The translations under genes and the position numbers were made by a program. Below, piece by piece: positions 24,140-49,454 of a stretch of DNA of 62,042 bases. The stretch's first letter is position 1, and every line of letters starts with the position of its first letter. Source of the DNA: a virus; the IMG/VR virus record IMGVR_UViG_3300027969_000107, positions 1 to 62,042 of that record, one strand, 5' to 3'. Under the pieces are notes generated by a model, which saw only the letters and a list, made by a program, of their open reading frames with translations, did no database searches and had not been told where the DNA came from.

Positions 24140-24862
24140 ATGACTGCTACTGTGATTATACCGACCACCGGTTCGGCTGAGGTTCACACCGCTATTAAAT
24201 CTGTATTGAATCAAACATATGATACCAAATGTTATGTTGTTTGTGATGGTCCTGAATATGTTCATGCTGTTAAAAATCATGTAAAGATTTTTGAGAGCCA
24301 TCCGAAATACAAAAATATTATGGTTTGTAATTTGCCTTTGAATGTGGGTGCCAGAGGTTTCTATGGCCACCGAGTTTATGCAGCTTTTACACACTTGATT
24401 GATACAAAATATGTAATGTGGTTAGACCAAGATAATTGGTTATATGAAAACCATGTTAAAAGTTGTATTGACACTATCGAAGCAACTAATCTAGACTGGT
24501 GTTATTCCCTACGACAAATACATAATAAGACCGGTGATTTTGTTTGCTTTGATGATTGTGAATCGTTAGGCAAATGGCAAACCTATCATGGCATACATCA
24601 CATAGATACAAATAGTTATTGCGTTAAGACAGAAATTGCAATAAAATTAGCAACCGCTTGGCATGGTGGTTGGGGTCAAGATAGAGTATTTTTGGCAACA
24701 ATTGCTCAACACTTCCCTAAATGGGATTGCACAGGCAACTATACAGTCCATTATCGTGTTGATGGTGGTCAAGGTTCTGTTACGGCAGATTTTTTTGAAA
24801 ATGGCAATAAAGTAATGTTTGAAAAATATAATGGAGTTTACCCATGGCGTCAAAAAGTTTAA
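24140..24862 (+). CDS. Glycosyltransferase family 2-like protein
   Basis: 240 residues. The N-terminus MTATVIIPTTGSAEVHTAIK and SVLNQTY are the GT2 nucleotide-sugar fold; MWLDQDNWLYENH provides the DxD-like metal site. First gene of an eight-gene glycan cluster with overlapping ends; it overlaps the next ORF by 19 bases. Confidence 0.82.
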   Translation: MTATVIIPTTGSAEVHTAIKSVLNQTYDTKCYVVCDGPEYVHAVKNHVKIFESHPKYKNIMVCNLPLNVGARGFYGHRVYAAFTHLIDTKYVMWLDQDNWLYENHVKSCIDTIEATNLDWCYSLRQIHNKTGDFVCFDDCESLGKWQTYHGIHHIDTNSYCVKTEIAIKLATAWHGGWGQDRVFLATIAQHFPKWDCTGNYTVHYRVDGGQGSVTADFFENGNKVMFEKYNGVYPWRQKV

Positions 24863-25692
24863 TAATCGGTGCATTTACTAATTACAACTACAATCAATTA
24901 AAACCATGGGTTGAATCGATTGATGAATGTGGTTTTACTGGCGATAAAGCCATGGTTGTTGGTAATGCTTCAGAAGAAACAATCGGTGAGTTAATCAAAC
25001 GAGATTTCATCATCATTAAGATGCATGATATTAAAGCACCAATTCATGTGGCTCGCTTTCTTTCAATCTACGACTTTCTTAAAAACACTTGGCAGAATTA
25101 TAGTCATGTGGTAACCACAGATGTCAAAGATGTTTACTTCCAAACAAATCCAATTGTATGGTTAGAATTAAATCTTAAAGGTAAAAAACTTGTTGCCGGT
25201 TCTGAAGGTATGAGATATGCAGACGAACCATGGGGTAATGAGAATCTTATGCAATCTTATGGACCATATGTTCATGAGCAGTTCAAAAATAATGAGATAT
25301 ACAATGTAGGAACAATCGGTGGTGTATCTGAGTATGTAAAAGATATGATGTTCAATATTCTATTCAATGCAATCAACCGACCCATTCCTATTTGTGACCA
25401 AGCGGTCTATAATGTTCTCATTCAGACACAACCATTCAAAGGTGTAACTTACTTTGCTAAACAATTAGATGGTTGGGCTTGTCAGGCTGGCACAACAGTT
25501 GACCCATCCAAGATTGAATCATTTAGACCACATCTATTAGAACCAGAACCAAAGTTTGAAGATGGCATTGTTAAGACATCATTAGGCAGAACATTTGCAA
25601 TTGTTCACCAATATGACCGAGTACCTGCATGGAAAGAACATATCAAACAAAAATATCAACAAGAAGAAATATTAACTTTTAGGACCGAATAA
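24844..25692 (+). CDS. Glycosyltransferase-like protein
   Basis: 282 residues. IIGAFTNYNYNQLKPWVESI, a VVTTDVKDVYFQTNP segment (DxxD/V site) and WGNENLMQSYGP are a pattern seen in bacterial and phage hexosyltransferases. Acceptor unknown. The start at 24844 lies inside the 3' end of the preceding gene. Confidence 0.72.
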   Translation: MASKSLIIGAFTNYNYNQLKPWVESIDECGFTGDKAMVVGNASEETIGELIKRDFIIIKMHDIKAPIHVARFLSIYDFLKNTWQNYSHVVTTDVKDVYFQTNPIVWLELNLKGKKLVAGSEGMRYADEPWGNENLMQSYGPYVHEQFKNNEIYNVGTIGGVSEYVKDMMFNILFNAINRPIPICDQAVYNVLIQTQPFKGVTYFAKQLDGWACQAGTTVDPSKIESFRPHLLEPEPKFEDGIVKTSLGRTFAIVHQYDRVPAWKEHIKQKYQQEEILTFRTE

Positions 25693-26219
25693 TGGACTTT
25701 GAAAAAGAATATCAAGATGCCTGTGTAAGAGATACAGACATACACGAACATTTACCAACAATATCCGTTTTAACTTCAGAGTGTAATCATGTAACCGAAC
25801 TTGGTGTTGGTTGGGCTCAAAGCACCCGTGCATTTCTACGACATGATATAGAATTGCATAGTTATGAATTTATGCCTCAACCGGGTATTCGTGAATTCTT
25901 TGAAGAAGCCAAAAATGCTGGTCGTAATGTAACGCTTCATGTTGATGACACTCGTAAAGTAGAAATTGCAGAAACCGATTTGATGTTGGTGGACAGTCTA
26001 CATATCTATGAGCAGGTACAAAAAGAATTAGAATTACACGCAGGTAAAGTTCGTAAATATCTTTTATTTCACGACACCACATTATTTGCTGACCGTGGTG
26101 AATTTGGTGGCAAGGGTATTTGGCCAGCGGTTCAAGAATTCATTGATTCTCATCCTGAATGGCAATTAGTTGAAAGACGGCACAATAATAATGGATTAAC
26201 TATTTTAAAGAGAGTATAA
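25692..26219 (+). CDS. Class I SAM methyltransferase-like protein (Methyltransf_24 type)
   Basis: 175 residues. ELGVGWAQSTRAF replaces the glycine-rich SAM loop, with LMLVDSLHIYEQVQKEL and LLFHDTTLFADRGEFGG as in cephalosporin-hydroxylase/methyltransferase-24 relatives. In a glycan cluster it may methylate a sugar. A second member of the family is at 57266. Confidence 0.72.
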   Translation: MDFEKEYQDACVRDTDIHEHLPTISVLTSECNHVTELGVGWAQSTRAFLRHDIELHSYEFMPQPGIREFFEEAKNAGRNVTLHVDDTRKVEIAETDLMLVDSLHIYEQVQKELELHAGKVRKYLLFHDTTLFADRGEFGGKGIWPAVQEFIDSHPEWQLVERRHNNNGLTILKRV

Positions 26220-27220
26220 TGAAAATCTTTATCACGGGAATTGCAGGTTTCCTAGGTAGTCACCTTGCAGATAGAATGTTGGAATTGGGACACGAAGTTA
26301 TTGGTAACGATACACTTATTGGTGGTTATCGTGATAATGTTCCAAAGAAAGCAAAGTTGTATGTTGTGGATTGTTGCGATATAGAAAAAATGACTTACAT
26401 CATGGAAGGTTGTGATATTGTTATACACTCAGCCGCTACTGCACACGAAGGACTTTCTGTATTCAGTCCTAGTTTTATTACCAAAAATATATTTGAAGCT
26501 TCTGTTGCAACAATCTCAGCTGCGGTACAAAACAAAGTAAAACGATTTGTATATTGCACATCGATGGCAAGATATGGTAATCAACCTCATCCTTTCACCG
26601 AAGATATGGCACCGAAACCAGTAGACCCTTATGGTGTTGCAAAAGTTGCTGGTGAAGATGTATTAAAGATTCTTGCTGAAACGCATGGCATGGAATGGAA
26701 CATTGCGGTGCCACATAACATCGTTGGTCCTCGTCAAAAGTTTGATGACCCTTTCCGTAATGTTATGAGTATCATGGCTAATCGTAATCTCCGTGGTTTA
26801 CCTGCAATCATCTATGGTGACGGCAATCAAACTCGTTGTTTCTCATATGTTGCTGACTGTATCAACTGTTTAGAGAAGATGGCATTGGATCCCAAAGTTG
26901 TTGGTGAGATTATCAACATTGGTCCTGATGACGGCACAATCTCAATCAAAGACTTGGCAGTATTGGTAGCCAAAGAAACCGGATTTGAAGGTAAAGCAAT
27001 TCATATGCCAGACCGACCAAGAGAAGTTAAACACGCTGATTGTTCTGCTGACAAGGCAAGATGGTTATTGCAATATGAAACTAAAACCACATTAGAGAAA
27101 TCTATCCAAGAAACTGTGGCATATATTAAGAAAAAAGGACCTAGACAATTTGATTATTCTTATCCTTTAGAAATCATTTCTGATAAAACTCCTAAAACTT
27201 GGAAAGATAGGTTAATGTAA
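26219..27220 (+). CDS. NAD-dependent epimerase/dehydratase (extended SDR)
   Basis: 333 residues. Rossmann motif TGIAGFLGSHLADRM (GxxGxxG), a CTSMARYGN catalytic Ser/Thr strand and catalytic Y-x-x-x-K in DPYGVAKVAGED. It is closest in layout to UDP-glucose 4-epimerase/GDP-mannose epimerases and probably supplies an activated sugar to the neighbouring transferases. Confidence 0.9.
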   Translation: MKIFITGIAGFLGSHLADRMLELGHEVIGNDTLIGGYRDNVPKKAKLYVVDCCDIEKMTYIMEGCDIVIHSAATAHEGLSVFSPSFITKNIFEASVATISAAVQNKVKRFVYCTSMARYGNQPHPFTEDMAPKPVDPYGVAKVAGEDVLKILAETHGMEWNIAVPHNIVGPRQKFDDPFRNVMSIMANRNLRGLPAIIYGDGNQTRCFSYVADCINCLEKMALDPKVVGEIINIGPDDGTISIKDLAVLVAKETGFEGKAIHMPDRPREVKHADCSADKARWLLQYETKTTLEKSIQETVAYIKKKGPRQFDYSYPLEIISDKTPKTWKDRLM

Positions 27221-27999
27221 TGGCATCTATATCATTTCTTCATTTGGCTTCGGCTGGTAAATCAATATCAACAGAAAAAGTTGTTAGTAACATTAGACAA
27301 TATCATCCAGATGCTTATTATTTTTTGGGATCTGATGCTGCTGATGATTTATCGGATATTGCCAAACAATACAATTTAGATTATCATTATTTCGATGATA
27401 AGTTGGGATATCCAACACAACCTTTTGGTTACAGAAAAGAAAAGGTATTATTGTGGTTGGAACGATTTCATTATGCCTGTGAAAATTGTAACACATCACA
27501 TATAATGATGGTAGAAGATGATGTTTGGATTAAAAAACCTATTACAGTAAAAGATGAATGGGAGATGTCTTGCCATAAGATTAGTCATGGTAATCGTTTT
27601 CCTCCTGCTGTATTAGATATCATGGAACAATTTTCTGGTGTAAAACCTAAAACCGATTTCTATGGTGGCGGCGGTGGTTCAATTTACAATGTCAAAACAT
27701 TTTTAAAGAACTACACAAGAATGACCGCATTGATTGATGATAAGTGGGATTACATACAAGACAATCATTATCCTACGATTGGTTGGATGGACTGTTTAAT
27801 GGTCGCATACTATTTCTTTTGTGGTAAAAATTATACAGAGAATCCTCATATGACAGATACACACCATCACCAAAAAGGATTTGATTTTGATAAATTTGTA
27901 GAAGAACAGCCAGAACACATTGAAATAGTTAATAACTATAAAAAGTATTACTGGCCTAATGAAAATGAAGTTATAACATTTAATACAGAATCAATATGA
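27220..27999 (+). CDS. Glycosyltransferase-like protein
   Basis: 259 residues. MMVEDDVWIKKPI gives an acidic metal motif, followed by FYGGGGGSIYNV and TIGWMDCLMVAYY. Consistent with a GT-A fold enzyme; no precise family. Overlaps the next gene by four bases. Confidence 0.65.
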   Translation: MASISFLHLASAGKSISTEKVVSNIRQYHPDAYYFLGSDAADDLSDIAKQYNLDYHYFDDKLGYPTQPFGYRKEKVLLWLERFHYACENCNTSHIMMVEDDVWIKKPITVKDEWEMSCHKISHGNRFPPAVLDIMEQFSGVKPKTDFYGGGGGSIYNVKTFLKNYTRMTALIDDKWDYIQDNHYPTIGWMDCLMVAYYFFCGKNYTENPHMTDTHHHQKGFDFDKFVEEQPEHIEIVNNYKKYYWPNENEVITFNTESI

Positions 28000-28793
28000 A
28001 CGACATAACAATAGTCACCGCTTTCTTTGATATTGGTCGTGGTGATTGGACACCAGACAAAGGATTACCACACTATTTACATAGAACGACCAAAACATAT
28101 CTTGACCGATTTAGTCATATGGCTAAATTGGAAAATCCTATGGTTGTTTATACATCAAAAGATTTGGTTGATGAGGTAAAATTTCTCAGACAGGATAGAC
28201 CTACTGACATACTCACAATTGATTTTCCTAATAGTTTTCAAAAACTAAGAGATGAGATTACCAGAGTTCAAAAAGACTCAGAATATCAAGCTAAAATAAA
28301 TCCCGCACAAGCAAAAAATCCAGAGTATTGGAATGCTGACTATGTTCTCGTCAATTTTTTAAAGTCATCTTTTGTTACAAGAGCTTTACAATCTAATCTT
28401 ATTAATACTGATTTGGTTGCTTGGATGGATTTCGGATACTGTAGAGACCTATCTACACTTAATGATGTTAAACATTGGCAATATCCTTTTGCCAAAGATA
28501 AAATACACTTTTTCAATTTAAAAGATTGGCAAGAAGGCACATTCATTGAGAATGTTATTTTCAATAATGATGTTCACATTACAGGTCCATGTATTGTTGC
28601 GGGTAAAGATATGTGGCAAACACTAGAGCATTTAGTTCACCATAGTGTAGACCAATTACTTAAAAATAATTTAATAGATGATGACCAAACCATCTTATTG
28701 ATGTCGTATTTACAAAAACCAGAATTGTTTGAATTGCATAAAGTATCAGCTGATGATTGGTTTGTTGCTTTTAAGGATTATAATGAAAATTAA
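27996..28793 (+). CDS. HtrL/YibB-like glycosyltransferase family protein
   Basis: 265 residues. The start MNDITIVTAFFDIGRGDW and the core TDLVAWMDFGYCRD, then ITGPCIVAGKDMW match the HtrL_YibB family linked to lipopolysaccharide and surface glycans. Overlaps its neighbours on both sides. Confidence 0.75.
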   Translation: MNDITIVTAFFDIGRGDWTPDKGLPHYLHRTTKTYLDRFSHMAKLENPMVVYTSKDLVDEVKFLRQDRPTDILTIDFPNSFQKLRDEITRVQKDSEYQAKINPAQAKNPEYWNADYVLVNFLKSSFVTRALQSNLINTDLVAWMDFGYCRDLSTLNDVKHWQYPFAKDKIHFFNLKDWQEGTFIENVIFNNDVHITGPCIVAGKDMWQTLEHLVHHSVDQLLKNNLIDDDQTILLMSYLQKPELFELHKVSADDWFVAFKDYNEN

Positions 28794-29514
28794 AATTGAT
28801 TGTACCGCCAATCTAGGTGATTTTTGTAATGCACTACCTGTAATCTCAGGTATCTCAAAATATAAAAATGAAAAGATTCATCTCATTATCAGACCAGAGA
28901 TGCGTAAGTTTAATGGTATTAAAGAGTTTTTAAAATATCAACCAATGATTGAAGATGTCGATTTCTCCGATGATTTATTGACTTTTGGTGACATTATGAC
29001 TATCAGTTCATGGACACGCATGGACCAAGAAGATTCAAATCGTCCTATTGAGACCTGTCGTTATGAGAATTGGGTAAATGATAATTACAGAATGTTATTT
29101 GAAGTTGATGATGATTTTGAGATTCAAGTTTTCCCAATGTTTGTTGATGATTTCAATGATAAAACTATTATTGGTGATAGATGGTCTGCAAAACAAGATC
29201 CTAGTGTTGATGCAAGACGATACACCAATGTAATTGAGAATGGTGCAAATCTTGATAAAGACAAAGTTGTATATATGGACTACTCAAAGCCATTAATGTA
29301 TAATTGCAATCTTATCAAACAGAATCCTAATCCATTTATTACTACATTCACAGGCATTGGTATTATTGCTGACCTAATGAATAAAGAAACAATCGTTGGT
29401 TGGGACGAAGATATGAGGACTTGGGATGGCCATCCTGTTGAGTTTGATTTTAAACGACACTATTATGGTAATCGTAAATCAAAATTAGTTTATGTGAAAG
29501 ATATTACACTATGA
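28783..29514 (+). CDS. GT9-like protein (N-terminal half type)
   Basis: 243 residues from ATG 28783 (MKIKIDCTANLGDFCNALPV). LGDFCNALPVISGISKY recalls the LGD...LP start of heptosyltransferase-type GT9 enzymes. Overlaps the previous stop and the next start. With the 29511 product it may act as a split or paired transferase; that is inference. Confidence 0.55.
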   Translation: MKIKIDCTANLGDFCNALPVISGISKYKNEKIHLIIRPEMRKFNGIKEFLKYQPMIEDVDFSDDLLTFGDIMTISSWTRMDQEDSNRPIETCRYENWVNDNYRMLFEVDDDFEIQVFPMFVDDFNDKTIIGDRWSAKQDPSVDARRYTNVIENGANLDKDKVVYMDYSKPLMYNCNLIKQNPNPFITTFTGIGIIADLMNKETIVGWDEDMRTWDGHPVEFDFKRHYYGNRKSKLVYVKDITL

Positions 29515-30227
29515 TTATCAATATTGAACCTGGAACTTTTGGCACAGTTCGAAATGGAGATATGATTGCTGTTGCGAATGTCTTGGAACATATCAGAAAA
29601 ACAAATAACAATCCTACAATACAGTTTCATTTGAAACCAGGAAATGTTAGCTCAGACACACATTGTCAAACATTTTATGAGATAATGTTGAAGATGACTA
29701 ATTATTTTTCAACAGAACCGGGTGAACAATCATTGCCTTGGAGAAAAGTAAATGTTTGGGATTTCAGAGATATATGTGGTGATTTGATAAAAATACCAAA
29801 TAATGCACCGATGGAAAAGAAGATTGCTGTATTTCCATTATTTGATGCACCATATAATCAATGGCGTAACTGGCCAAAGAATGTATATGAACAGATTATT
29901 GCCAAGTATTCTACTGAAGAATATAAAGATTATGAAAAAGTAATCTGTAAAAAAGGCGAATCAACCGAAGGTTGCCCATTTGAGGGTTGGCGGTATTCTA
30001 CCAATTTTGTGCAGAATTATTACCACATTACCACAGCGGAAATCTTTGTTGGTGGTGATACTGGTTCTAGCCACTTTGCATGGGCGCTTGACAAAGGACC
30101 TAAAGACCTGATATACTATGGATCCAGTCGAGCATTAGTTCATACCCTACCATTCTATTTACTTCAAGGAAAAGGTCGTATGGCCAATTATTGGTTGGAT
30201 TTTGAAGGTACAAAATGGAATAATTAA
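29511..30227 (+). CDS. GT9/heptosyltransferase-like protein
   Basis: 238 residues. GTVRNGDMIAVANVLEHIR at the N-terminus and AEIFVGGDTGSSHFAWAL near residue 190 correspond to the sugar-nucleotide binding GDTGxxH motif of GT9. Last gene of the glycan cluster; no obvious terminator follows before the late promoter. Confidence 0.62.
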   Translation: MIINIEPGTFGTVRNGDMIAVANVLEHIRKTNNNPTIQFHLKPGNVSSDTHCQTFYEIMLKMTNYFSTEPGEQSLPWRKVNVWDFRDICGDLIKIPNNAPMEKKIAVFPLFDAPYNQWRNWPKNVYEQIIAKYSTEEYKDYEKVICKKGESTEGCPFEGWRYSTNFVQNYYHITTAEIFVGGDTGSSHFAWALDKGPKDLIYYGSSRALVHTLPFYLLQGKGRMANYWLDFEGTKWNN

Positions 30228-30279: not shown

Positions 30280-30299
30280 AGTTGTATAAATAAGCAACT
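30280..30299 (+). promoter_or_regulatory. Late promoter TATAAATA within an inverted repeat
   Basis: TATAAATA (30285-30292) is bracketed by AGTTG (30280-30284) and CAACT (30295-30299). It opens the block of putative capsid-targeted proteins. Confidence 0.82.
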
Positions 30300-30336: not shown

Positions 30337-31527
30337 ATGTTATCATTTAAGTCATTCTTAACGGAGGAATCTGAACAAGGTTCTGAACTTAAACATATTC
30401 ATCATGCGGAAGATAGGCCTTTGATGCACGGCCACGCAGGTTTTGAACACGCCCATGCAGCTTTGATGAAAGCTCATGCACACATGACTGGTGGTCATAA
30501 GAATACCAATTTAACGATGAAATATGATGGTTCTCCATCAATCGTTTTTGGTCATCACCCCAAAAATGGTAAATTCTTTGTTGCAACCAAATCTGCTTTT
30601 AATAAGAATCCAAAGATTAACCATACAGAAAAAGATATTGACAAGAATCATGGTCATGCTCCTGGTTTAGCAAAAACACTCAAACACGCATTAAAACATT
30701 TACCAAAAGTAACACCAAAAGAAGGTGTATTCCAAGGTGACCTAATGCATCATGCTGATACAAAGCATTTACATGAAGGTTATATTGTAGAAGCGAAAGG
30801 TGATGTTTCTTTTACTCCAAATACAATCACTTATACTGCCAAAGGTAAAGAAGCAGAAAAAATAAAACGCTCTAAGGTTGGTGTGGTGGTTCACCACCAG
30901 TATAGTAATGATATGAAACACGCTTCACCTCATGTAGATACGTCAAAGTTTAAAGAACATCCAGATGTTCATATTCACGGTGCAGAACATGATACAAGTA
31001 AAGTAAAACATTCTGCTGAGAATGAGAAACACTTTCAAAAACACATGGCTGCAGCTAAAGAAATCCACGACACTCATGGTCACAAGATGTATGATGCGAT
31101 TCATCCAAAACATGGCGGAGAAACTGGCCACCTGTCAACCTACATAAACAAGACAGTAAGACATGACGAAGTGCCAAGTGTTAAAGGCTTTAAAGAACAT
31201 TTACACGACATTCATGCAAAACAGGCTGCCAAAGTAAAAACTGAGAAATCCAAGTCTGAAAAGACCAAAGAAGGTGCCTCACAGATTGCTCATGTTGAAA
31301 AACACAAAGCACATTATGGTAATTTGTTTGCTATGCATCACCATTTACATCAAGCTAAAAATGCTTTGGTTAAATCACTAGAAACACATGAAGGACATTA
31401 CCAACATCACATTGAAGGTAAGAAGTCTAAACCTGAAGGTTTTGTAGTTCACCACGATAATCAACCAACCAAATTGGTTAATCGTGCTGAGTTTGCTAAA
31501 CAAAATTTATTAAAAGTTAGAAAATGA
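30337..31527 (+). CDS. His-rich protein with nucleotidyltransferase/ligase-like motifs; CTS-like N-terminus
   Basis: 396 residues from ATG 30337 (AGAAGGA ribosome-binding site). The N-terminus MLSFKSFLTEE resembles the T4 capsid-targeting sequence with an L-x-E cleavage site. TMKYDGSPSIVFG contains K-x-D-G, the adenylation motif of covalent nucleotidyltransferases; GVFQGDLM may be motif III, and EGFVVHH...KLVNRAEF resembles motifs IV-V of RNA/DNA ligases. Histidine content is extreme. Late expression and the CTS suggest a packaged internal protein; ligase activity is untested. Confidence 0.7.
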   Translation: MLSFKSFLTEESEQGSELKHIHHAEDRPLMHGHAGFEHAHAALMKAHAHMTGGHKNTNLTMKYDGSPSIVFGHHPKNGKFFVATKSAFNKNPKINHTEKDIDKNHGHAPGLAKTLKHALKHLPKVTPKEGVFQGDLMHHADTKHLHEGYIVEAKGDVSFTPNTITYTAKGKEAEKIKRSKVGVVVHHQYSNDMKHASPHVDTSKFKEHPDVHIHGAEHDTSKVKHSAENEKHFQKHMAAAKEIHDTHGHKMYDAIHPKHGGETGHLSTYINKTVRHDEVPSVKGFKEHLHDIHAKQAAKVKTEKSKSEKTKEGASQIAHVEKHKAHYGNLFAMHHHLHQAKNALVKSLETHEGHYQHHIEGKKSKPEGFVVHHDNQPTKLVNRAEFAKQNLLKVRK

Positions 31528-33317
31528 AATCGTTTTTAGAACTAGTCGAAGAAACAAAACAAGGTGAAAAACACCATGTGATGACCTTTGGTCGCATGAA
31601 TCCTCCAACCACAGGTCATTTGAAGTTAATTGACAAGGTTAAGGAAGTAGCAGCTAAACACAATGCCTCACATTCTGTTGTAACTTCACACTCCCAAGAT
31701 TCTAAGAAGAATCCATTATCAGCTGAACAGAAAATTAAACACCTTAAAAGGTATTCTCCAGGTACACACTTTGAGGCATCTTCCAAAGAACATCCAACAT
31801 TCCTACATCATGCAGCCGAATTACATAAGAAAGGTGTAACACATCTTCATATGGTTGCTGGTTCTGACCGTGTTGATGAGTATAAAAAGAAATTACACCA
31901 ATACAATGGTACACACAAAGGTGCGTTGTACCATTTCAAAAAGATTACTGTCCATTCAGCAGGTCAAAGAGATCCTGATGCCGAAGGTTCAACTGGTATG
32001 TCTGGTACCAAAATGCGAGCTCATGCCGCTTCTGGTAATGCAAAAGAATTCAAAAAAGGTGTGCCAGAACACGTTTCAGATAAACACGCAAAAGAACTTA
32101 TGCATGATACCCGTAAGGGTATGGGGTTACATGAAAACTTTAATCGTGGTCTATTCAAAGCCATCTTTGTAACCGGTGGACCTGGTTCTGGCAAAGATAT
32201 CATTATCCGTGAATCAATACCAGAAGCTCGTGCCGTGGAACTTAACGCCAATCAAGCCTATGATTACCTTGCTGATAAACAAAAACTATCTGAAAAAACC
32301 AGTGATTTCCGCAGAGAAGCCATTCGGAATCGTGGTCCTTTAATTATCAACGGACCAGCAGATAGTATTGACAAAATCAACTATATCAAAGAGGAATTAG
32401 AAGATTTAGGTTATTCCAGTATGATGATATTTGTGAATACCACAAATGAAGTAAGTCAAGAAAGAAATACTAAACTGTCCCGTATGATGGTCGAATCCAT
32501 TCGATACGACAAATGGACACAAGCTCAGAAAAATAAAAATCTCTTTGCCGAATCTTTTGACAATTTCGTGCAGATAGACAATACGGGCTCACTTGAATCC
32601 ATTGAGGAAGATATAACTCAAACTTACCTAAATATTCATAACTTCATTGAAGGTAGGACCTATGGAGATGTGTCTTTGTCGTGGTTAGAAAAGCACGGTA
32701 AGTTAAATAAAAGTGATAATTTAATTAAGGAAGAAAAAAATGTTCAAAGCGCTAGTAAATTTACTAAAATTAAAACCAATCCAGAACTCAAAGCCCCTGG
32801 ACTCGACAGCATCCCAGCCGACAACAGACCAAACGACTCCAACGGAGATGACATCAAGTGGAACTCCAACAGTAAGCGAAAAACCTTCATCTTCCGCACC
32901 TACAGCGAAGCCCAAGAACCAACGCTCACCGTCAACCCGCAGCCGAAAGAAACCAACTTCTCCAAAGACAAAGAGCAAGTAAAGAAGAAACGAATAGTAG
33001 ATGCTCCAACCGTAAGTCAAAGACTACGGAACACCGCAGGTGTGGGGCCAGAATTTGATACACGCCAACAAGGAACAGTATATCCTATGTCAGGTCTAGG
33101 CGATGTAACATACAGAGAACAAAAAGAATTTAGTAGTTTTAGAAAAACAATTAAAGAATATAATGGTTTTCAAAATGACATTTCTATACCTGACATGGGT
33201 GTAGGTGGAACTTTGAATGGCGCTACTAATTTTGAACCAATGCAATCATATAAAGATGCAAATAGAAATATTGGCACCCAAATAAAAATTAAAAAGAAAA
33301 AGAAACAGGAGAAATAA
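31524..33317 (+). CDS. NMNAT/cytidylyltransferase-like domain fused to P-loop kinase; CTS-like N-terminus
   Basis: 597 residues. After MKSFLELVEE, a nucleotidyltransferase domain (about 15-190) shows FGRMNPPTTGHLKLI (HxGH variant TTGH) and STGMSGTKMRAHAASG (ISxTxxR-like). A P-loop domain (about 210-370) has FVTGGPGSGKD. The C-terminal 220 residues are unassigned, with EFDTRQQGTVYPMSGLGDVT. NAD-related or nucleotide chemistry is inferred. Overlaps the preceding gene by four bases and is under the same late promoter. Confidence 0.78.
   Translation: MKSFLELVEETKQGEKHHVMTFGRMNPPTTGHLKLIDKVKEVAAKHNASHSVVTSHSQDSKKNPLSAEQKIKHLKRYSPGTHFEASSKEHPTFLHHAAELHKKGVTHLHMVAGSDRVDEYKKKLHQYNGTHKGALYHFKKITVHSAGQRDPDAEGSTGMSGTKMRAHAASGNAKEFKKGVPEHVSDKHAKELMHDTRKGMGLHENFNRGLFKAIFVTGGPGSGKDIIIRESIPEARAVELNANQAYDYLADKQKLSEKTSDFRREAIRNRGPLIINGPADSIDKINYIKEELEDLGYSSMMIFVNTTNEVSQERNTKLSRMMVESIRYDKWTQAQKNKNLFAESFDNFVQIDNTGSLESIEEDITQTYLNIHNFIEGRTYGDVSLSWLEKHGKLNKSDNLIKEEKNVQSASKFTKIKTNPELKAPGLDSIPADNRPNDSNGDDIKWNSNSKRKTFIFRTYSEAQEPTLTVNPQPKETNFSKDKEQVKKKRIVDAPTVSQRLRNTAGVGPEFDTRQQGTVYPMSGLGDVTYREQKEFSSFRKTIKEYNGFQNDISIPDMGVGGTLNGATNFEPMQSYKDANRNIGTQIKIKKKKKQEK
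32740..32982 (+). CDS. Possible overlapping reading frame
   Basis: An 80-codon frame inside the 31524 gene with its own AAGGAAG site 8-13 bases before ATG. The product is Ser/Thr/Pro-rich with a basic tail (ends KKPTSPKTKSK). The region is conspicuously C-rich compared with flanks, which can result from dual coding. The alternative is a by-chance open frame in a low-complexity linker. Confidence 0.25.
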   Translation: MFKALVNLLKLKPIQNSKPLDSTASQPTTDQTTPTEMTSSGTPTVSEKPSSSAPTAKPKNQRSPSTRSRKKPTSPKTKSK

Positions 33318-33318
33318 A

Positions 33319-34560
33319 ATGTTTGTCAATAAACTTAAAATGAATTCAGTTGCTGATGCTGTAAGTAAAATTACAGATGAAACTATTGCTGAAGCAGAAA
33401 AGGTAACCACTTCAACTGGCATGAAAGTTTATGGTTCTTCTTATGGTGATTCGGCCAAAGCACGCCGTGACCAAGTTAAGAGAGATATCGACACAATTAA
33501 AGGTCCTACAACTAAAGAGTTGACTGGTAAAGACAAAAAAGATTACGAGAAAACCAAAAGTAGATATGATGAAGCTGCCAAACCAGACTTCTTGGACATG
33601 GATAAAGATGGCGACAAGAAAGAGCCAATGAAGAAGGCAGTTGCTGATAAGAAAAAGAACGAATCGACTGAATTTAAAGCCAAACTAATTGAAGCTCTTA
33701 AAGGCAATCAACATAAGATTGACAAAAATAAAAATAATAAAATTGATTCTCAAGATTTTAAAATTCTTCGTGGCCAAAAAAATGTAGCAGAAGATTCATG
33801 TGAAGATGAAGCCAAACAAGAAGTAAAAAAGCATGAAAAAAGATTACATGGTAAAGATGGTGAAGTTTCCAAACACGTAGATAAAATGCACAAAGAAGAA
33901 GTTGAGTCAATTGAAGAAAAACACATGACTGACGCTGAAATGGCCAAGCGTGAAAAAATTGTTAAGTCAATGAAAAAAGGTTTTGCTGGATTTAGACAGC
34001 GTTATGGAAAAGATGCAAAATCTGTAATGTATGCCACAGCAACAAAACAGTCAATGAAAGAAGATGCTGTTGAAGAAGAAATTGATCCTAAAGTTCGCAC
34101 CAAAGATACACTAAAAGGTCAAGAACGAACAGCACAATCTGATGATGTTGGTCCTAATTCAAATGGTAGATCCACAAAAGTAAAATTTCGTGGAGGTCCA
34201 ATGAAAGAAGAAGTAAAAAAGTCTGACATTCCAGCTTTCTTGCGTAAGGCTCGTGGTGATAAACCATTGACAGTTGCTGATGCAAAAGCTGGAAATAAAG
34301 ATTCAATTTCTTCAAAAGAAAATTTAGCCAAAGCTCGTGGCGTTCAAGAAGGTAAACAACCTGAATCTGATACAGTTCCTTTTGTAACAAATGCGGAACA
34401 ACCTCCTTTTGATAAACCATACAAAAAAATTAGTGCTTCAGTAACAGATAAATCTGGTGCAAAACACACACCAATGTCCCGTGCTAAAGATTTGGCTCGT
34501 TCAGCTATGAAAAGAATTAAAACAGAGATGTTAGGTAAAGCTCCAGGAAATAACGGTTAA
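33319..34560 (+). CDS. Late structural/internal protein with EF-hand-like loops
   Basis: 413 residues, highly charged. DMDKDGDKKEPMKKA (about 94-108) and DKNKNNKIDSQDF (about 135-147) look like calcium-binding EF-hand or dockerin-type loops. The block MTDAEMAKREKIVKSMKKGF, RQRYGKDAKSVMYATATKQS is one I associate with virion proteins of T4-like cyanophages. IAEAE near residue 25 could be a gp21-type cleavage site. CAGGAGA precedes the start. Role inferred as virion-associated. Confidence 0.65.
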   Translation: MFVNKLKMNSVADAVSKITDETIAEAEKVTTSTGMKVYGSSYGDSAKARRDQVKRDIDTIKGPTTKELTGKDKKDYEKTKSRYDEAAKPDFLDMDKDGDKKEPMKKAVADKKKNESTEFKAKLIEALKGNQHKIDKNKNNKIDSQDFKILRGQKNVAEDSCEDEAKQEVKKHEKRLHGKDGEVSKHVDKMHKEEVESIEEKHMTDAEMAKREKIVKSMKKGFAGFRQRYGKDAKSVMYATATKQSMKEDAVEEEIDPKVRTKDTLKGQERTAQSDDVGPNSNGRSTKVKFRGGPMKEEVKKSDIPAFLRKARGDKPLTVADAKAGNKDSISSKENLAKARGVQEGKQPESDTVPFVTNAEQPPFDKPYKKISASVTDKSGAKHTPMSRAKDLARSAMKRIKTEMLGKAPGNNG

Positions 34561-34569
34561 GGTAAAAAC

Positions 34570-36537
34570 ATGGATGCAAAAAAATTAAAAATGATTGTTA
34601 AGGGTGAAAAGAAACCCACCTTTGGTACAGACCCTAATGAACCATGGTCTGTTCGTGCAGGTATCACCGAAAGTCAAAAAGGTGAACTACACGATTATCT
34701 TAAATCTCGTGGTATTAATCCAGATTTCGTCAGCAAAGACACAAAAATATCTCATGCAAAATCTTCTGAGTTTCATAAATGGAGGCGTGACCACCAGTTT
34801 GATGATCCAATTAACTATGTTTCAACTACTGTTGCCGACAAAATGAAAACACAACGGGCACAAACAGAAGAAGTTGAGCCTATCGATGAAAAAAATGTAC
34901 CAACAAGTCCAGAAAAATGGGCTCGTGCCAAGGCTGCGGCTAAATCCAAATTTGCAGTATATCCATCCGCATATGCAAATGGTTGGGCATCTAAGAAATA
35001 TAAAGCAATGGGTGGTGGATGGAAATCGGTATCTGAAAAAACGGAACAATCTGATGAATTGACATCAGAGGCATGGGACAATAGTGCAACTAAAATTAAA
35101 AAAAGTTTGAGTGCCGGTACATATAATACCAAACCAACCGCATTAGAAAGATTTCGTGCAGCTGCAGCAGTCCGAGCAAAGAAACACGATGAGATTGAGA
35201 AGAACCAATCTAAAGATGGTTCTGATATGACATCTGCTATTGACCGTTTAGAGAAACATTTAAACAAAGAAGAAACTGTCAATGAAGTTTCTGATTCAGA
35301 AGTTCAACATCACTTTGATAATTGGACAAATTCCGACCACGCTCCTTATAATAGTGATGCTGGAGATGATAATAAAGTTCACCAGTCAGCTTTAAGATAT
35401 TTGAGAGGTACCAATGTGCCAAAAGAAAAGCATGAAAAGTTGGCCATGCACATTGCTCACAAATATCATGGAAGTGGTATTGATGAAGCATCTGGTATTA
35501 GTAAAGCTAAAGAAACTTCATTTCATAAAAACTTAGATACTCTTGTTCATAAGACTTTTGGTAAAAGAAAAGATGAACTGAAAATGAAAGAGGAAGTTGT
35601 TACTGAAAAAAATGATTCTCATACACACGCTGCACATTACGAAGATCCAAAAACAGGTGAGTGGACAGGAATGAATTTGTTGATTGCAAAAGACGATGAG
35701 GATGCAATTCGTCAAGCAAATGAAAAATGTAAAGAAGGTTGCCGCCTAACAAAAGTGGAACGACACATTACTGTTAAAGAAGATGTTGAGATAGAAGAAG
35801 GTGAACATCGTCCTGGTCATCCAATGTATAAATCGGATCCTTCATTGTATAAAAAAACTCCAAAGGGTATAGCAAAAAGCCTTGCAACTCACGGAGCCAA
35901 ATATTTCTCAAATACAGATAGTGGAAATTACAGAACTACGGATAAAGAAGCACCACGATATAGAAATGAAGAAGTGGAAGAAATTGATGAACTCAAAAAG
36001 ACCACAGTATTTTCTTGGTTGAAAAAACAACCAGTTGTACCTGAGAAAAAACCAGGTATGAGTAGAAAAGACCATAACCAAAAAATTAAAACTCATAATA
36101 AGAGTTGGAATAGAGCTCTAGACCGTTTGTCTGGTTACAAACCAACATCAGAAGATGTGTTCCAAGACACACAAGCTGCAACACAAACTGCTTTTGATAT
36201 GGGAACTCAAGCTGACGATAGAGAACCAGTTTATTCCAAGAAAAAAGAAATGTCCAAATCAGCTCGTATAATTAAGTCATTATACAAGAAACACAAGATG
36301 GTCAAAGAAGATTTGTATGACCACGAAAAAGAAGATAAATCAGTAGCAAGTTATGGTAAAAAACCAAAGATGGACAAACAAGAGGTTTATGGTGATGATG
36401 ATAATCAAGCCGCTATGGTTTTAAAGGGTGGAACAACATTAACAGGTCAACCAAGAGATACTTTAGAAATCGATCCTATAATGAGAAAATCAGTAAGACC
36501 TGATAATAAAATCAGCAATCAGAAAACAGATAAATAG
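34570..36537 (+). CDS. Large charged late protein with a DUF5872-like segment
   Basis: 655 residues, Lys/Glu/His-rich and probably largely unstructured. SPEKWARAKAAAKSKFAVYP, then SAYANGWASKKYKAMGGGWK resembles the short DUF5872 motif. No enzymatic motif is found. The neighbourhood and composition match internal/scaffold-type proteins. The 5' gap to the preceding stop is nine bases. Confidence 0.62.
   Translation: MDAKKLKMIVKGEKKPTFGTDPNEPWSVRAGITESQKGELHDYLKSRGINPDFVSKDTKISHAKSSEFHKWRRDHQFDDPINYVSTTVADKMKTQRAQTEEVEPIDEKNVPTSPEKWARAKAAAKSKFAVYPSAYANGWASKKYKAMGGGWKSVSEKTEQSDELTSEAWDNSATKIKKSLSAGTYNTKPTALERFRAAAAVRAKKHDEIEKNQSKDGSDMTSAIDRLEKHLNKEETVNEVSDSEVQHHFDNWTNSDHAPYNSDAGDDNKVHQSALRYLRGTNVPKEKHEKLAMHIAHKYHGSGIDEASGISKAKETSFHKNLDTLVHKTFGKRKDELKMKEEVVTEKNDSHTHAAHYEDPKTGEWTGMNLLIAKDDEDAIRQANEKCKEGCRLTKVERHITVKEDVEIEEGEHRPGHPMYKSDPSLYKKTPKGIAKSLATHGAKYFSNTDSGNYRTTDKEAPRYRNEEVEEIDELKKTTVFSWLKKQPVVPEKKPGMSRKDHNQKIKTHNKSWNRALDRLSGYKPTSEDVFQDTQAATQTAFDMGTQADDREPVYSKKKEMSKSARIIKSLYKKHKMVKEDLYDHEKEDKSVASYGKKPKMDKQEVYGDDDNQAAMVLKGGTTLTGQPRDTLEIDPIMRKSVRPDNKISNQKTDK
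36529..36536 (+). promoter_or_regulatory. Possible late promoter variant
   Basis: GATAAATA, one mismatch to the late box, overlapping the end of the 34570 gene, 33 bases before the 36569 start. Confidence 0.4.
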
Positions 36538-36568
36538 TAACACAACCCAAGGTTAAAAGGAGAAAAAA

Positions 36569-37189
36569 ATGCCATTATGGGGAAATAACGATAGAGCAAA
36601 CAGCGAACCACTCTTTCCAGAAAATAGAGAAGTTATTCCTGTAGCTACATTAGTAACTGCCAATGCGACAGCATTAGGCACCAATGAAATTATATTTACA
36701 ACCAATCCAACCACATCCGGTATTGCAAACGGAATGTATGTTTATGCAACCGCAAATAACGGATTATCTCGTTTCTTTGATACATCTATCATTGACCAAC
36801 AAGATATTTCCTTTAAACGTGGTAACAATAGCGTTGCAGTAATCAGAACTGGTGCGGCCAACATTCGTGTTCAGTTTGCAAACAACACAGTAGCTCCAAT
36901 CGCCGCTGGTGAAACAATCTACTTTGCTACCGCAATTAATCACGGCACAAATGCAGCTTCACGTTTTGCTAACGACACAATCTTGGTAACATCCACTCGT
37001 TTAGCAAATACTTTGATTGCTGGTGCAAACAACGGTGTTCATACTGGTTGGAATCGTTTTACATACAAAGTAAACAACGATGGTACTAAGCGTCAATTAA
37101 GAGAAACTTTAGTTGTTATTGCAGCTCCAACTGCATTGAACGTAAGTTCTGGTAACACAAGCACAAACTCTGTGTTCCAAGGTGTTTAA
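36569..37189 (+). CDS. Putative virion structural protein
   Basis: 206 residues starting MPLWGNNDRANSEPLFPENR. The W-G-N-x-D-x-A-N-S opening is typical of a family of virion proteins in cyanophage/pelagiphage T4-likes. The remainder is Asn/Thr/Ala-rich beta structure without lysine-rich segments, unlike its neighbours. A strong AAAAGGAGAAAA site suggests high expression. Its stop overlaps the next start. Confidence 0.75.
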   Translation: MPLWGNNDRANSEPLFPENREVIPVATLVTANATALGTNEIIFTTNPTTSGIANGMYVYATANNGLSRFFDTSIIDQQDISFKRGNNSVAVIRTGAANIRVQFANNTVAPIAAGETIYFATAINHGTNAASRFANDTILVTSTRLANTLIAGANNGVHTGWNRFTYKVNNDGTKRQLRETLVVIAAPTALNVSSGNTSTNSVFQGV

Positions 37190-37650
37190 TGTTGGGATTT
37201 AAACAATTTGTTGTAGAAGGAAATGATTTAATAATTCCTACTGCACAGATTATGAAAAGTGGTTCGAACTTGGCGGACAAGATAACCCGCCAAGAATTGA
37301 ACCGCAACCTAGCGTTAGCTGTAAGTGGAAATCATATGAATCCATATTCTGCTTGGGTTCGTGCAAGTAAAGTATTAGTTTTATATGGCATTACTCTCCC
37401 AAAAGTAGTATTTCATGATTTAGATGCTGGTGAAGAAATTATTCATATCGACCAATTCGGTGCTCGCTCGGGTGCCGAATTGAATGGTACAGTAGAGAAG
37501 TTGAATAATTTAGATGAAGTTAAACATTATTTTTATTTTTCATATGAAACAGATGATAATGGTTATTACGATGTTGAAGCGATGATTTCTGATGAAAATG
37601 AATTAGATGATTATCTTTCTTCAGAGGAACCAGACATAGAAGAAGAATGA
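37189..37650 (+). CDS. Hypothetical protein with CTS-like N-terminus
   Basis: 153 residues. MLGFKQFVVEG matches the capsid-targeting pattern M-x-x-F-K-x-F-V-x-E. The central region (MNPYSAWVRASKVLVLYGIT) is conserved-looking; the tail is acidic and ends EEPDIEEE. Function unknown. Confidence 0.7.
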   Translation: MLGFKQFVVEGNDLIIPTAQIMKSGSNLADKITRQELNRNLALAVSGNHMNPYSAWVRASKVLVLYGITLPKVVFHDLDAGEEIIHIDQFGARSGAELNGTVEKLNNLDEVKHYFYFSYETDDNGYYDVEAMISDENELDDYLSSEEPDIEEE

Positions 37651-37654
37651 CAGA

Positions 37655-38041
37655 ATGATTGATAATTTAAATGATGATAATTTTTTGATATATGCAATGA
37701 AATGTTATAATTCACCACATTGTATCATGTCTGAATTTGAAAGTGATATTAAACGAACCAAATATTTGAAGCGTTTATTTCGTAGATATAAAATTACCAA
37801 ATCTCTCAAAGAGAGGTTGATATTAAATCATATCATTTTATTGAATAATGTTTTTGGTCCAGAACACACGGCAAGAATATTATTTTATAAAATAGACGAG
37901 AGAGATTATGATATACTCAAAACTTTCTTGTCATATTTAAATATTGTACCAGAAATGGTTTATGGAATTAGAGATAAAAACATTTCGATTGTAGAAATAC
38001 CAATAGACGTTAATGTCGCAGAGATATTGAGGCAAATATGA
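37655..38041 (+). CDS. Conserved T4-like protein (DUF7207-like)
   Basis: 128 residues, helical: DNFLIYAMKCYNSPHCIMSE, TKYLKRLFRRYKI, LILNHIILLNNVFG, ILFYKIDERDYDILKTFLSY. This layout is recurrent in cyanophage T4-likes near internal proteins. Function unknown. It overlaps the next start (ATGA). Confidence 0.72.
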   Translation: MIDNLNDDNFLIYAMKCYNSPHCIMSEFESDIKRTKYLKRLFRRYKITKSLKERLILNHIILLNNVFGPEHTARILFYKIDERDYDILKTFLSYLNIVPEMVYGIRDKNISIVEIPIDVNVAEILRQI

Positions 38042-38358
38042 AAACATTTAAACAGTTTGTAACCGAAGAATACTTAGACGAAAAATCTCCAGCATGGCAA
38101 CGAGCCGCCGGTAAAGATCCAGAAGGTGGTTTAAATCGTAAAGGTATTGCCTCTTATCGTAGAGAAAATCCAGGTTCTAAATTATCGATGGCTGTTACAA
38201 CAAAACCATCTAAACTAAAACCAGGTTCTAAATCAGCCAATCGTAGAAAATCATTTTGTGCTAGAATGGGTGGCATGAAGAAACGATTAACATCCGCTAA
38301 GACAGCAAATGATCCGGATAGCCGCATCAACAAAGCTTTAAGAAAGTGGAATTGCTGA
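38038..38358 (+). CDS. Small basic protein with CTS-like N-terminus (DUF6321-like)
   Basis: 106 residues. MKTFKQFVTEEYLDE is almost the T4 internal-protein CTS (MKTYQEFIAE). It is followed by GKDPEGGLNRKGIASYRREN and RRKSFCARMGGMKKRL, a basic Arg/Lys/Cys segment known from phage DUF6321-type proteins, suggesting DNA association in the capsid. Confidence 0.75.
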   Translation: MKTFKQFVTEEYLDEKSPAWQRAAGKDPEGGLNRKGIASYRRENPGSKLSMAVTTKPSKLKPGSKSANRRKSFCARMGGMKKRLTSAKTANDPDSRINKALRKWNC

Positions 38359-38966
38359 TGAAATCATTTAAACAATATCTTGGTGAAGATTTACGCCAAT
38401 GGTTTAAACAGAAGTGGGTTCGTATGGACACCAAAGGTAATATTAAAGGTGACTGTGCAAGAGAACCGGGTGAAGGCAAACCAAAGTGTTTACCTCAAGC
38501 AAAAGCTCATGCAATTGGTAAAGAAGCTCGTGCTAGTGCTGCTCAAAGAAAGCGTAGAGAAGATCCAAATCCAGAACGCCGTGGTGCACCAATCAATGTA
38601 AAGACCGAAGAAACTTTCCTTGAGAAGTGGTCACAAAAATACAAAAAAAGTATTAACTGTAATAATCCTAAAGGATTTTCTCAAAAGGCACATTGTCAAG
38701 GTCGAGAAAAAAATGAAGAAGTTGATGAAGCCTGTTGGGATGGATACACAGCAAAAGGTATGAAGAAAAAAGGCAACCGTATGGTACCTAATTGTGTCAA
38801 AGAAGATGGTGCGATGGGTGGTTCTGCTGGTCCAACGAATGTGGTTAGTAGCGGTGCAATTGCTGGTACAGGACGACCCAATGGTGGAGAACCAGGTGTT
38901 TATTTACCCCGTAGAAAGAAAAGTCCTGTTATGATGTCTATCAGGAGAAAATCTCCAAAGGCTTAA
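38358..38966 (+). CDS. Basic protein with CTS-like N-terminus
   Basis: 202 residues from ATG 38358 (the upstream GTG reading is rejected because ATG overlaps the previous stop). MKSFKQYLGED is CTS-like. LRQWFKQKWVRMDTKGNIKG, then CAREPGEGKPKCLPQAKAHA and an AAQRKRREDPNPERRGAP stretch form a conserved Cys/Arg-rich unit; a second Cys region (CWDGYTAKGMKKKG) follows. Probably an internal DNA-binding protein. Confidence 0.72.
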   Translation: MKSFKQYLGEDLRQWFKQKWVRMDTKGNIKGDCAREPGEGKPKCLPQAKAHAIGKEARASAAQRKRREDPNPERRGAPINVKTEETFLEKWSQKYKKSINCNNPKGFSQKAHCQGREKNEEVDEACWDGYTAKGMKKKGNRMVPNCVKEDGAMGGSAGPTNVVSSGAIAGTGRPNGGEPGVYLPRRKKSPVMMSIRRKSPKA

Positions 38967-38967
38967 T

Positions 38968-39465
38968 ATGTGGTTTTTATCATTCATACCTGATTTGATT
39001 TTACAATGGGCAATACATGGTCTAGTCATTCTTGGACTTGTATTAACATTTATAGGATCACTTGTTAGATTTATACCTGTTATTCAACCATATGCTTTGA
39101 TTGGTAGACAGTTAGGTATAGTGTTGTTGATAGTTGGTGTATTCTTTGAAGGAGGATATGCAACTGAAATGTCGTATCGTGCTAGAATAGCCGAAATGCA
39201 AGCAAAAATTAAAGAAGCAGAAATTAAGTCTGCTAAAGTTAATCAAAAATTAACAAATGAATTAGATAAAAAAAGAAGTGAAATTAAAGATAGGGTGAAA
39301 AACAATGCAAAAGATATTCAAGCGCAACGGCAAAATATTGATGCTGAGTGCCGTCTGTCTGATACTGCTTGGATGCTCTACAACCGTTCCATTGACTCAA
39401 AAGTTTCCACAGGCACCACAAGTCTTGATGGAACCACCACCAAGTCTAAAACAACTCCCCGATAA
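38968..39465 (+). CDS. Putative i-spanin (inner-membrane spanin)
   Basis: 165 residues: two hydrophobic segments (about 5-30 and 47-66), then a charged coiled coil (about 70-120) suited to the periplasm. The o-spanin frame starts inside its 3' third, the classical embedded/overlapping arrangement of Rz/Rz1. Two rather than one TM helix is unusual. Confidence 0.62.
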   Translation: MWFLSFIPDLILQWAIHGLVILGLVLTFIGSLVRFIPVIQPYALIGRQLGIVLLIVGVFFEGGYATEMSYRARIAEMQAKIKEAEIKSAKVNQKLTNELDKKRSEIKDRVKNNAKDIQAQRQNIDAECRLSDTAWMLYNRSIDSKVSTGTTSLDGTTTKSKTTPR

Positions 39466-39598
39466 TAAAAAAACACTAACAGATTTGTTAGACAATGCCA
39501 ATGAAAATTATGGCATTTATTTTGACGTTCTGGAAAGATATAAATCTTGGCAAGAGTGGTATATTCAACAAAAACAAATTTACGAAAGTGTGAAATGA
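39305..39598 (+). CDS. Putative o-spanin lipoprotein
   Basis: 97 residues. A signal sequence with lipobox LILLGCST (Cys about residue 24) is followed by a Pro-rich stretch and a short helix. It overlaps the i-spanin gene in another frame by 161 bases and ends on the ATGA of the nuclease gene. It would anchor in the outer membrane and fuse membranes at lysis. Confidence 0.68.
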   Translation: MQKIFKRNGKILMLSAVCLILLGCSTTVPLTQKFPQAPQVLMEPPPSLKQLPDNKKTLTDLLDNANENYGIYFDVLERYKSWQEWYIQQKQIYESVK

Positions 39599-48707: not shown

Positions 48708-49144
48708 ACTGGCAATATGATGGTAAAGATTTTACTGAAGATTTGATTGGTAATAATTACGGGTTCGTGTATCAGATAATTAATCTGACGAATGGTAGAA
48801 AATACATAGGCAAGAAATTCTTTTATTCTGCCAAAACCAAACAAGTCAAAGGTAAGAAAAAACGATATAAAGCACCAAGTGATTGGCAAACTTACTATGG
48901 AAGTAGTGCCGAATTGGTTCAAGATGTGTTATCATTAGGGAATGAAAACTTCACTAGAGAAATACTACATCTTTGCCAATCCAAAGGCGAATGTGGTTAT
49001 CTTGAAGCTAAAGAACAATTTATCCGTGGTGTCATGGAATCAGATGACTACTACAACTCATGGATAATGGTACGAGTTAGAAAATCACATATCAAGGACT
49101 ATAATGCTAGACTTCTTAAAATATCTGAAGGAAGAACCGTTTGA
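48698..49144 (+). CDS. GIY-YIG-like nuclease domain protein
   Basis: 148 residues. GFVYQIINLTNGRKYIGKK fits the GIY-YIG arrangement (VYQI and KYIG), with a helical DWQTYYGSSAELVQD segment and a conserved Glu region (EAKEQF). Free-standing GIY-YIG (Seg-like) proteins are common in T4-likes. Possibly repair or homing; no intron is seen nearby. Confidence 0.72.
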   Translation: MGLNWQYDGKDFTEDLIGNNYGFVYQIINLTNGRKYIGKKFFYSAKTKQVKGKKKRYKAPSDWQTYYGSSAELVQDVLSLGNENFTREILHLCQSKGECGYLEAKEQFIRGVMESDDYYNSWIMVRVRKSHIKDYNARLLKISEGRTV

Positions 49145-49454
49145 CTTTTTAACCTTTTTAGAAGGTGACGAAAAAGACCAGATTACAATCATAGGACAAG
49201 AGTATGCTAATAAAGGTCTTCCAGTTGGCGGAAGCACTCTAGGTGAATCTTATCACATTGTCTTGTTCAGAGATAGTAAAGAAAAAAAAGATGAGTATGG
49301 CGACTTGGATTCGTTTGAGGCAATACTATCAGATCCATTAGAATACATTTCTGGATTAATACCATCCGGATTTTATGGTATAATTGCTAAAAGAACGACC
49401 ACATCAGAAAAAATAATTAATAAACTACTTGACAATATGAAAGAATCCATGTAA
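49104..49454 (+). CDS. Hypothetical protein with CTS-like N-terminus
   Basis: 116 residues. MLDFLKYLKEE fits the M-x-x-F-x-x-Y-L-x-E pattern of the internal proteins at 30337-38966. The rest (ITIIGQEYANKGLPVGGSTL) shows no known domain. It overlaps the GIY-YIG gene by 41 bases. Confidence 0.62.
   Translation: MLDFLKYLKEEPFDFLTFLEGDEKDQITIIGQEYANKGLPVGGSTLGESYHIVLFRDSKEKKDEYGDLDSFEAILSDPLEYISGLIPSGFYGIIAKRTTTSEKIINKLLDNMKESM

Follow-up and report, generated by a model that had tools for sequence, protein, structure and literature searches.

The internal proteins of bacteriophage T4 carry a capsid targeting sequence (CTS), an N-terminal leader that is cut by the gp21 protease after (L/I)-x-E (PMC9026906). 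Mutagenesis of internal protein (IP) IPIII assigned targeting to residues 4 and 7 and processing to residues 8 and 10 (Mullaney and Black 1996, as described in PMC9026906), and the same source states that Asp at position 10 blocks processing of the IPIII tag. Here, we analyze a block of nine + strand genes (p1 to p9, positions 30337-38966) in IMG/VR record IMGVR_UViG_3300027969_000107, a 62,042-base linear fragment of a virus from an environmental sample (hereafter, the window), in which five products start with a ten-residue tag of this kind. In our view, the block very likely serves a T4-like phage as an operon of late-expressed head cargo, with tags that target the products, gp21 that cuts them, and several probable polyproteins among them.

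In phages phiKZ and SPN3US, whose head ejection proteins are processed by the prohead protease, a gp21-type enzyme likewise cuts many head proteins after x-x-E, at redundant propeptide sites (PMC5694885, PMC9026906). Their motif differs, being S/A-x-E, and their propeptides are unrelated. In these phages, we know of neither a short tag shared by unrelated payloads nor shuffled mini-modules. The polyvalent proteins of phages and conjugative elements resemble the products described here in their multi-domain, shuffled architectures and are thought to be packaged and delivered (Iyer et al. 2017, accessible text of PMC5512222, in which the module families of the window block were not found); the modules of the window, by comparison, are small and uncharacterized, and the proposed cutter is gp21 acting at [LIV]-x-E rather than a metallopeptidase built into the protein. 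Among cyanophages, the cytidylyltransferase T4-GC190 was detected by mass spectrometry in purified virions of S-SM1 (Sullivan et al. 2010, PMC3037559), an NMNAT in the virion of S-SCSM1 (PMC9602691) and ORF154, an NMNAT/cytidylyltransferase-like protein, in that of S-CREM2 (PMC10665884). The accessible text of these papers reports virion presence and no targeting mechanism. These proteins share with p2 of the window a homologous NMNAT-like domain and a tagged N-terminus; p2 differs by an additional P-loop domain.

The tag system amounts to a much expanded version of T4 capsid targeting. It shares with the CTS of IPI-III its N-terminal position, aromatic residues at positions 4 and 7, an aliphatic residue at 8, Glu at 10, late expression and unrelated payloads, and the IPI start MKTFKEF is closely matched by MKTFKQF in p8. 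The differences lie in the cargo and its setting: the tag is found here on predicted enzymes (NMNAT/P-loop and RNA-ligase-like) and on modules, a much larger payload set, and in a conserved block beside the UvsX/gp41/primase genes of Kyanoviridae-type and other phages. To our knowledge, no role has been assigned to most proteins of marine T4-like phages. A ten-residue tag that picks out head-loaded proteins, compared here with T4 mutagenesis and published virion proteomes, together with [LIV]-x-E module borders that predict mature ends, would make many 'hypothetical proteins' of abundant ocean phages testable as candidate injected proteins for takeover or counter-defence, and would put diverse ready-made tags on offer for loading chosen proteins into T4-type heads.

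In the proposed mechanism, a detachable 10-residue leader, aromatic at positions 4 and 7, would dock the tagged protein on the prohead scaffolding core, and gp21 would cut after [LIV]-x-E (residues 8-10), removing the leader so that the payload stays in the head. Payloads of the block are an RNA-ligase-like enzyme, an NMNAT/P-loop enzyme and small modules, which would presumably be injected with the DNA. Three products, p3, p4 and p9, are probably polyproteins, which the same protease would cut at [LIV]-x-E into small, mostly basic mini-proteins. Sequence comparison leads us to infer cleavage by gp21 inside the prohead, of the tags and probably also of the polyproteins; injection, DNA binding and a function in the host are the predicted later steps.

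The N-terminal tag and its payloads

A preliminary description of the window had named five products with a shared N-terminus, and all five were recovered at their places: p1 (30337..31527; MLSFKSFLTE(E)), p2 (31524..33317; MKSFLELVEE), p6 (37189..37650; MLGFKQFVVE(G)), p8 (38038..38358; MKTFKQFVTE(E)) and p9 (38358..38966; MKSFKQYLGE(D)). The start M-x-x-F-x-x-[FLY]-[LIV]-x-E is thus present on 5/9 genes of the block, and p3, p4, p5 and p7 have no N-terminal tag. The consensus first proposed, M-x-x-F-[KL]-x-[FLY]-[VL]-x-E, stood in its core, but its limit to K or L at position 5 did not extend to relatives; the working pattern was fixed as M..[FY]..[FLY][LIV].E. This pattern occurs inside proteins at 3.4e-4 per internal position, ~0.03 tag starts are expected among all ~95-100 open reading frames (ORFs) of the window, and the chance of five tagged genes is P ~5e-16 for the nine of the block and ~2e-10 for ~95 window ORFs. 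A sixth match in the window, MLDFLKYLKEEPFDFL, belongs to a 116-residue ORF outside the block (49104-49454) with no family match, and may be due to chance or mark a further cargo protein.

Because megablast of the block against named phages gave no match, relatives were searched by protein. Close relatives, judged by protein similarity and gene order, include Pelagibacter phage HTVC008M, Methylophilales phage Melnitz, cyanophages and Stenotrophomonas phage DLP6. The motif search suggested at the outset for T4-like genomes was run on 160 related IMG/VR loci and found the tag on 183 of their 2,449 distinct ORFs, against 0.8 expected. As relatives inherit the tag together, counts of this type are not independent events, and better evidence comes from the number of unrelated payloads. 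When sequences were clustered without their leader, 16 clusters had a tag, ~3 of them likely by chance and ~13 credible (the first two clusters merge several payloads). Across the related loci, more than ten payloads that are not homologous to one another carry the tag, among them DUF6267, NMNAT/P-loop, DUF6321 and other modules, HAD phosphatase, M78-like metallopeptidase and several unknowns. The tagged HAD phosphatases (L107:7451-8077 and L114:3015-3629) resemble the polynucleotide kinase family phrog_415. A tagged 122-residue protein at L133:839-1207 has a weak match to M78/IrrE-type metallopeptidases. The tag is also gained or lost on one and the same payload, as DUF6267 carries it in the window, in DLP6 (MMKFTQFLAE) and, if an alternative start is used, in Melnitz, and lacks it in loci L116 and L140, HTVC008M and S-SM1.

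Residue constraint within the tag

The positions of the tag that are constrained across relatives are exactly 4, 7, 8 and 10. Position 4 is Phe in 124/132, position 7 is F/Y/L/I in nearly all and position 8 is L/I/V in 125/133; at position 10, Glu is found in 125 and Asp in 2 of 139, versus 147 and 119, respectively, of 1,556 for the same pattern inside proteins. The start MKTYQEFIAE, ascribed in the preliminary description to T4 internal proteins in general, applies to IPII and IPIII (NC_000866), both of which fit the working pattern, but not to IPI, which begins MKTFKEF and has an ITE site further along. The N-terminus of T4 gp23 contains FGSFLTE/A, with FKSFLTE/E as its counterpart in p1. 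In an AlphaFold2 model of p1 (predicted local distance difference test score, 85.5), residues 1-18 are disordered and the payload is folded; the model of p8 similarly has a low-confidence leader and a folded payload.

The shared N-terminus might instead reflect a conserved sequence for translation initiation or operon coupling that recombination has spread among gene starts, and the tagged genes are indeed tightly packed, with overlapping starts and stops. Their untagged neighbors in the operon, however, are packed just as tightly. Furthermore, one and the same tag peptide can be encoded by as many as 11 distinct DNA sequences, and position 8 uses many synonymous codons, so the constraint acts on the peptide; the preference for Glu over Asp at position 10 also speaks against an initiation signal, as do the T4 IP leaders, which share the pattern and have a tested targeting role. 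We regard an origin in initiation or coupling as very improbable.

Tagged relatives in virions

The preliminary description tied its packaging claim to presence in purified virions, and tagged NMNAT-like homologues are present in the virions of the three cyanophages introduced above: the S-SM1 protein begins MKKFSAFLNE (MKKFSAFLNEAERS), the S-SCSM1 NMNAT MKSFLQFLKE (MKSFLQFLKEAAES) and S-CREM2 ORF154 MKNFSSFLTE (MKNFSSFLTEADE). In S-SM1 and S-SCSM1, the gene shares the synteny of p2, lying between gp41/mazG and primase/nrdA genes. In the literature searched, we found no paper linking these virion NMNAT-like proteins to the head-targeting tag, and an open-access search found none that pairs capsid targeting with cyanophages and none that names DUF6321, an absence that is not proof.

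The virion evidence extends to other members of the block. In the syntenic block of S-SCSM1, the depositors mark gp89, 90, 91, 92, 93, 95 and 97 as virion proteins (MK867354); gp92 shares an EF-like module with p3, and gp95 (MALWGN...) is the positional counterpart of p5. Also marked is gp29, in which the same modules form a polyprotein-like chain with DUF6321 at its end, and all S-SCSM1 proteins that match our profile models, built for eight mini-modules, are in the virion list. The positional counterpart of p7, gp96, has no virion-protein annotation. In S-CREM2, gp160, with DWF, CWxGY and PSAY modules, is present in the virion. Two further virion proteins were noted in passing: the 69-residue S-SCSM1 gp93 (L197:5627-5836) has a tag-like RTFKEFLEYIE at its C-terminus, and S-CREM2 gp156 (L194:8013-8726), which adjoins the tagged cytidylyltransferase, has the look of a small nucleotidyltransferase (GGxxxYxYxxxSDID motif).

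These proteins could conversely be abundant late contaminants of virion preparations that are not packaged at all. The S-SCSM1 authors raised contamination for the NMNAT (PMC9602691), and the virion annotation of the same phage extends to the cytoplasmic protein RegA, so contaminants are possible in that list. Nevertheless, NMNAT-like proteins were detected repeatedly, in three phages by three studies, and several members of the S-SCSM1 block were found together while the neighboring replication enzymes were not; we consider contamination an unlikely explanation.

Late promoter and prohead protease

A late promoter had been proposed over the block, and the T4-type octamer TATAAATA was located at 30285..30292 (+), just outside the block and 45-52 nucleotides (nt) 5' of p1. 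By itself, the octamer occurs in the window no more often than expected (5 seen versus 7 expected), and its window counts were rejected as promoter evidence; conservation across relatives alone is informative. It is present in 50/65 distinct upstream regions of p1 relatives (0.012 expected per region), in 47/65 of them at 51-55 nt.

Peptidase_S77 (gp21) and gp23 were found in 7/10 related records, including G001, the p1 of which is 88% identical. The gp23 proteins of related records have LxE in their N-terminal region (QLNE, FLSE, FLGE), and those of S-SCSM1 and S-CREM2 contain FLAE/A and LLTE/A. Capsid targeting, as first proposed for the block, is supported by four independent lines: the residue constraint of the tag, the NMNAT-like relatives in virions, gp21 and the LxE of gp23 in relatives, and the conserved late promoter.

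Module chains and candidate cleavage sites

Two of the untagged products are modular. By our module models, p3 (33319..34560) consists of EF-like and RYG modules with [LIV]xE before modules, for example ESIEE/KHMTDAE, and p4 (34570..36537; phrog_27331) contains a PSAY module (net charge +8) bounded exactly by PIDE/KNVP and SVSE/KTEQ. Tagged modular products are p8, in which a second site, YLDE, precedes a DUF6321 module (PF19846, E-value 4e-19), and p9 (phrog_727, E-value 5e-20), in which the tag is followed by a DWF module, a GWSEK module, EEVDE, a CWxGY module, CVKE and a basic tail. The modules are small and mostly basic, and their orders are shuffled (B-D-C-A, E-B-D-C-A and G-D-E in our lettering, with B-F-C in p9). 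No match was returned by a PDB sequence search with p8 and p2, or by Foldseek with the DUF6321 model.

The motif [LIV]-x-E stands directly before modules, as in EEVEQIDE/KNVPTSPEKW and VELDE/KQMTDDEM. A site precedes PSAY in 22/31 cases and RYG in 22/22, against 1/31 and 1/22, respectively, for the reversed motif, a control that is only partly informative because EEVEL-type linkers make the reversed motif common before DUF6321. A better control is offered by nature, in that the sites of three modules follow the phage type. For DUF6321, a site (scored as [LIVMF]xE) is present in 41/45 distinct T4-like contexts versus 1/53 without T4-like neighbors, and of the four T4-like contexts lacking it, two lie on large contigs that have no gp21 or gp23; for PSAY, the figures are 25/27 versus 0/6, and for DWF 26/29 versus 3/14, these three being 'LRE' or similar inside the module. 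Tag-like sequences recur inside chains (ESFSDFLNE/G in P-TIM40_113 and SFESFVSE/A in locus L122), and cyanophage P-TIM40 has a single DUF6321 module behind a tag (MKNFAQYIEE/DWQKK). The pattern fits a fusion of tagged minigenes into chains that gp21 would cut, and is not proof of cleavage. These probable gp21-cut module chains are the testable part of the system and, if confirmed, new.

DUF6321 is mostly 80-85% identical between phage types, and in podovirus-type phages it is a gene of its own with scaffold and capsid genes as neighbors; the occurrence of close relatives in T4-like and other phages indicates that it moves between them. Stand-alone DUF6321 genes lie beside scaffold, major capsid or structural genes in L201, L202 and L203, from Prochlorococcus and Pelagibacter phages.

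Several observations weigh against the cargo-operon reading, and some of them favor an alternative in which the tags do target the head but the modular proteins stay whole in the virion, with [LIV]-x-E belonging to flexible acidic linkers. Total [LIV]xE counts in p3 (6) and p4 (12) do not exceed those of the reversed motif (10 and 12) and were rejected as evidence of processing, site location alone being telling; acidic linkers such as EEVEQIDE easily contain the motif; and CWxGY is often without a site (present in 14/26 T4-like contexts, with no clear trend). More generally, p3 and p4 lack an N-terminal tag that would take them into the head; S-SCSM1 gp30 (MKTFKQFMSE) looks tagged and has no virion annotation; the related sequences are not independent, and homologues inflate the tag counts; and gp21, gp22 and gp23 are absent from the 62-kb fragment, which has no head genes, so that the protease of this phage is a prediction. 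On the other side, the sites immediately precede modules of unrelated sequence (PSAY and RYG), the same modules lack them where T4-like neighbors are missing, and tag-like sequences occur inside polyproteins. We take the uncut alternative seriously while judging it somewhat improbable, and retain cleavage of the chains by gp21 as the preferred reading.

On a broader scale, marine and freshwater T4-like phages may have a general cargo-loading system in which exchangeable mini-modules, separated by [LIV]-x-E or internal tag copies, are made as polyproteins and cut by a gp21-type protease in the forming head, such that several small proteins are delivered per gene along with NAD- (nicotinamide adenine dinucleotide) and RNA-handling enzymes, and some modules are traded almost unchanged with podovirus-type phages. 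Our confidence in this wider proposal is evenly balanced.

Enzyme payloads

The first tagged product, p1, contains a DUF6267 domain (PF19782, E-value 9e-95) with ligase-type motifs: KxDGxP (motif I, KxDG), EGxV (IV) and KxxxR (V) are invariant in 20 aligned relatives. The ligase-like character claimed for it finds support in these motifs; the best PDB match of the p1 model in Foldseek, an RNA ligase, is weak and not significant (E-value 0.18). We regard p1 as probably a divergent nucleotidyltransferase/RNA-ligase-like enzyme. The identification of p2 as an NMNAT/P-loop fusion was upheld, with an NMNAT/cytidylyltransferase-like domain (PF01467, E-value 3e-6) and a P-loop, zeta/kinase-like domain (PF06414, E-value 2e-4; phrog_3041, E-value 3e-67). 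A NadR-type assignment (NMNAT plus riboside kinase) was considered for p2, and no match supports it. In L116:4090-5877 and L140:3193-4992, DUF6267 and the NMNAT-like domain are fused in one protein, suggesting joint action.

If an NMNAT entered the host with the DNA, it could replenish NAD when a defence response depletes it, and the combination of kinase-like, phosphatase-like and ligase-like cargo enzymes would be reminiscent of RNA repair. Possible roles of the basic modules are binding to DNA or RNA and, as for T4 IPI, the blocking of host enzymes. An NMNAT-like gene is also present in Escherichia coli phage 121Q, the annotation of which shows no sign of the cargo block.

Remaining genes and setting of the block

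The small tagged products had been described as basic, which is true of p8 (very basic, isoelectric point (pI) 10.5) but not of p6, an acidic domain of unknown function (pI 4.3). The positional counterparts of p6 begin MKSFKDFQNVNE in HTVC008M and MKNFKNHIAEE in Melnitz. A Pfam search for PF19846 in HTVC008M and Melnitz found nothing, which fits their differently built blocks. The untagged p5 (36569..37189; MPLWGN...) is related to S-SCSM1 gp95 by synteny and N-terminal resemblance only, and the untagged p7 (37655..38041) is a conserved block neighbor of the DUF7207 family (PF23837, E-value 8e-35).

T4-type replication genes are present in the window upstream of the block, which is located 3' of a sugar-modification cluster and 5' of a spanin-like gene. 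The cluster of sugar and glycosyltransferase-like genes, at 24140-30227, adjoins the block on its upstream side. Downstream, 38968-39598 holds an Rz-like spanin candidate (phrog_312, E-value 1e-4), which is overlapped in another frame by a lipoprotein-like ORF (39305-39598), as in nested Rz/Rz1 pairs.

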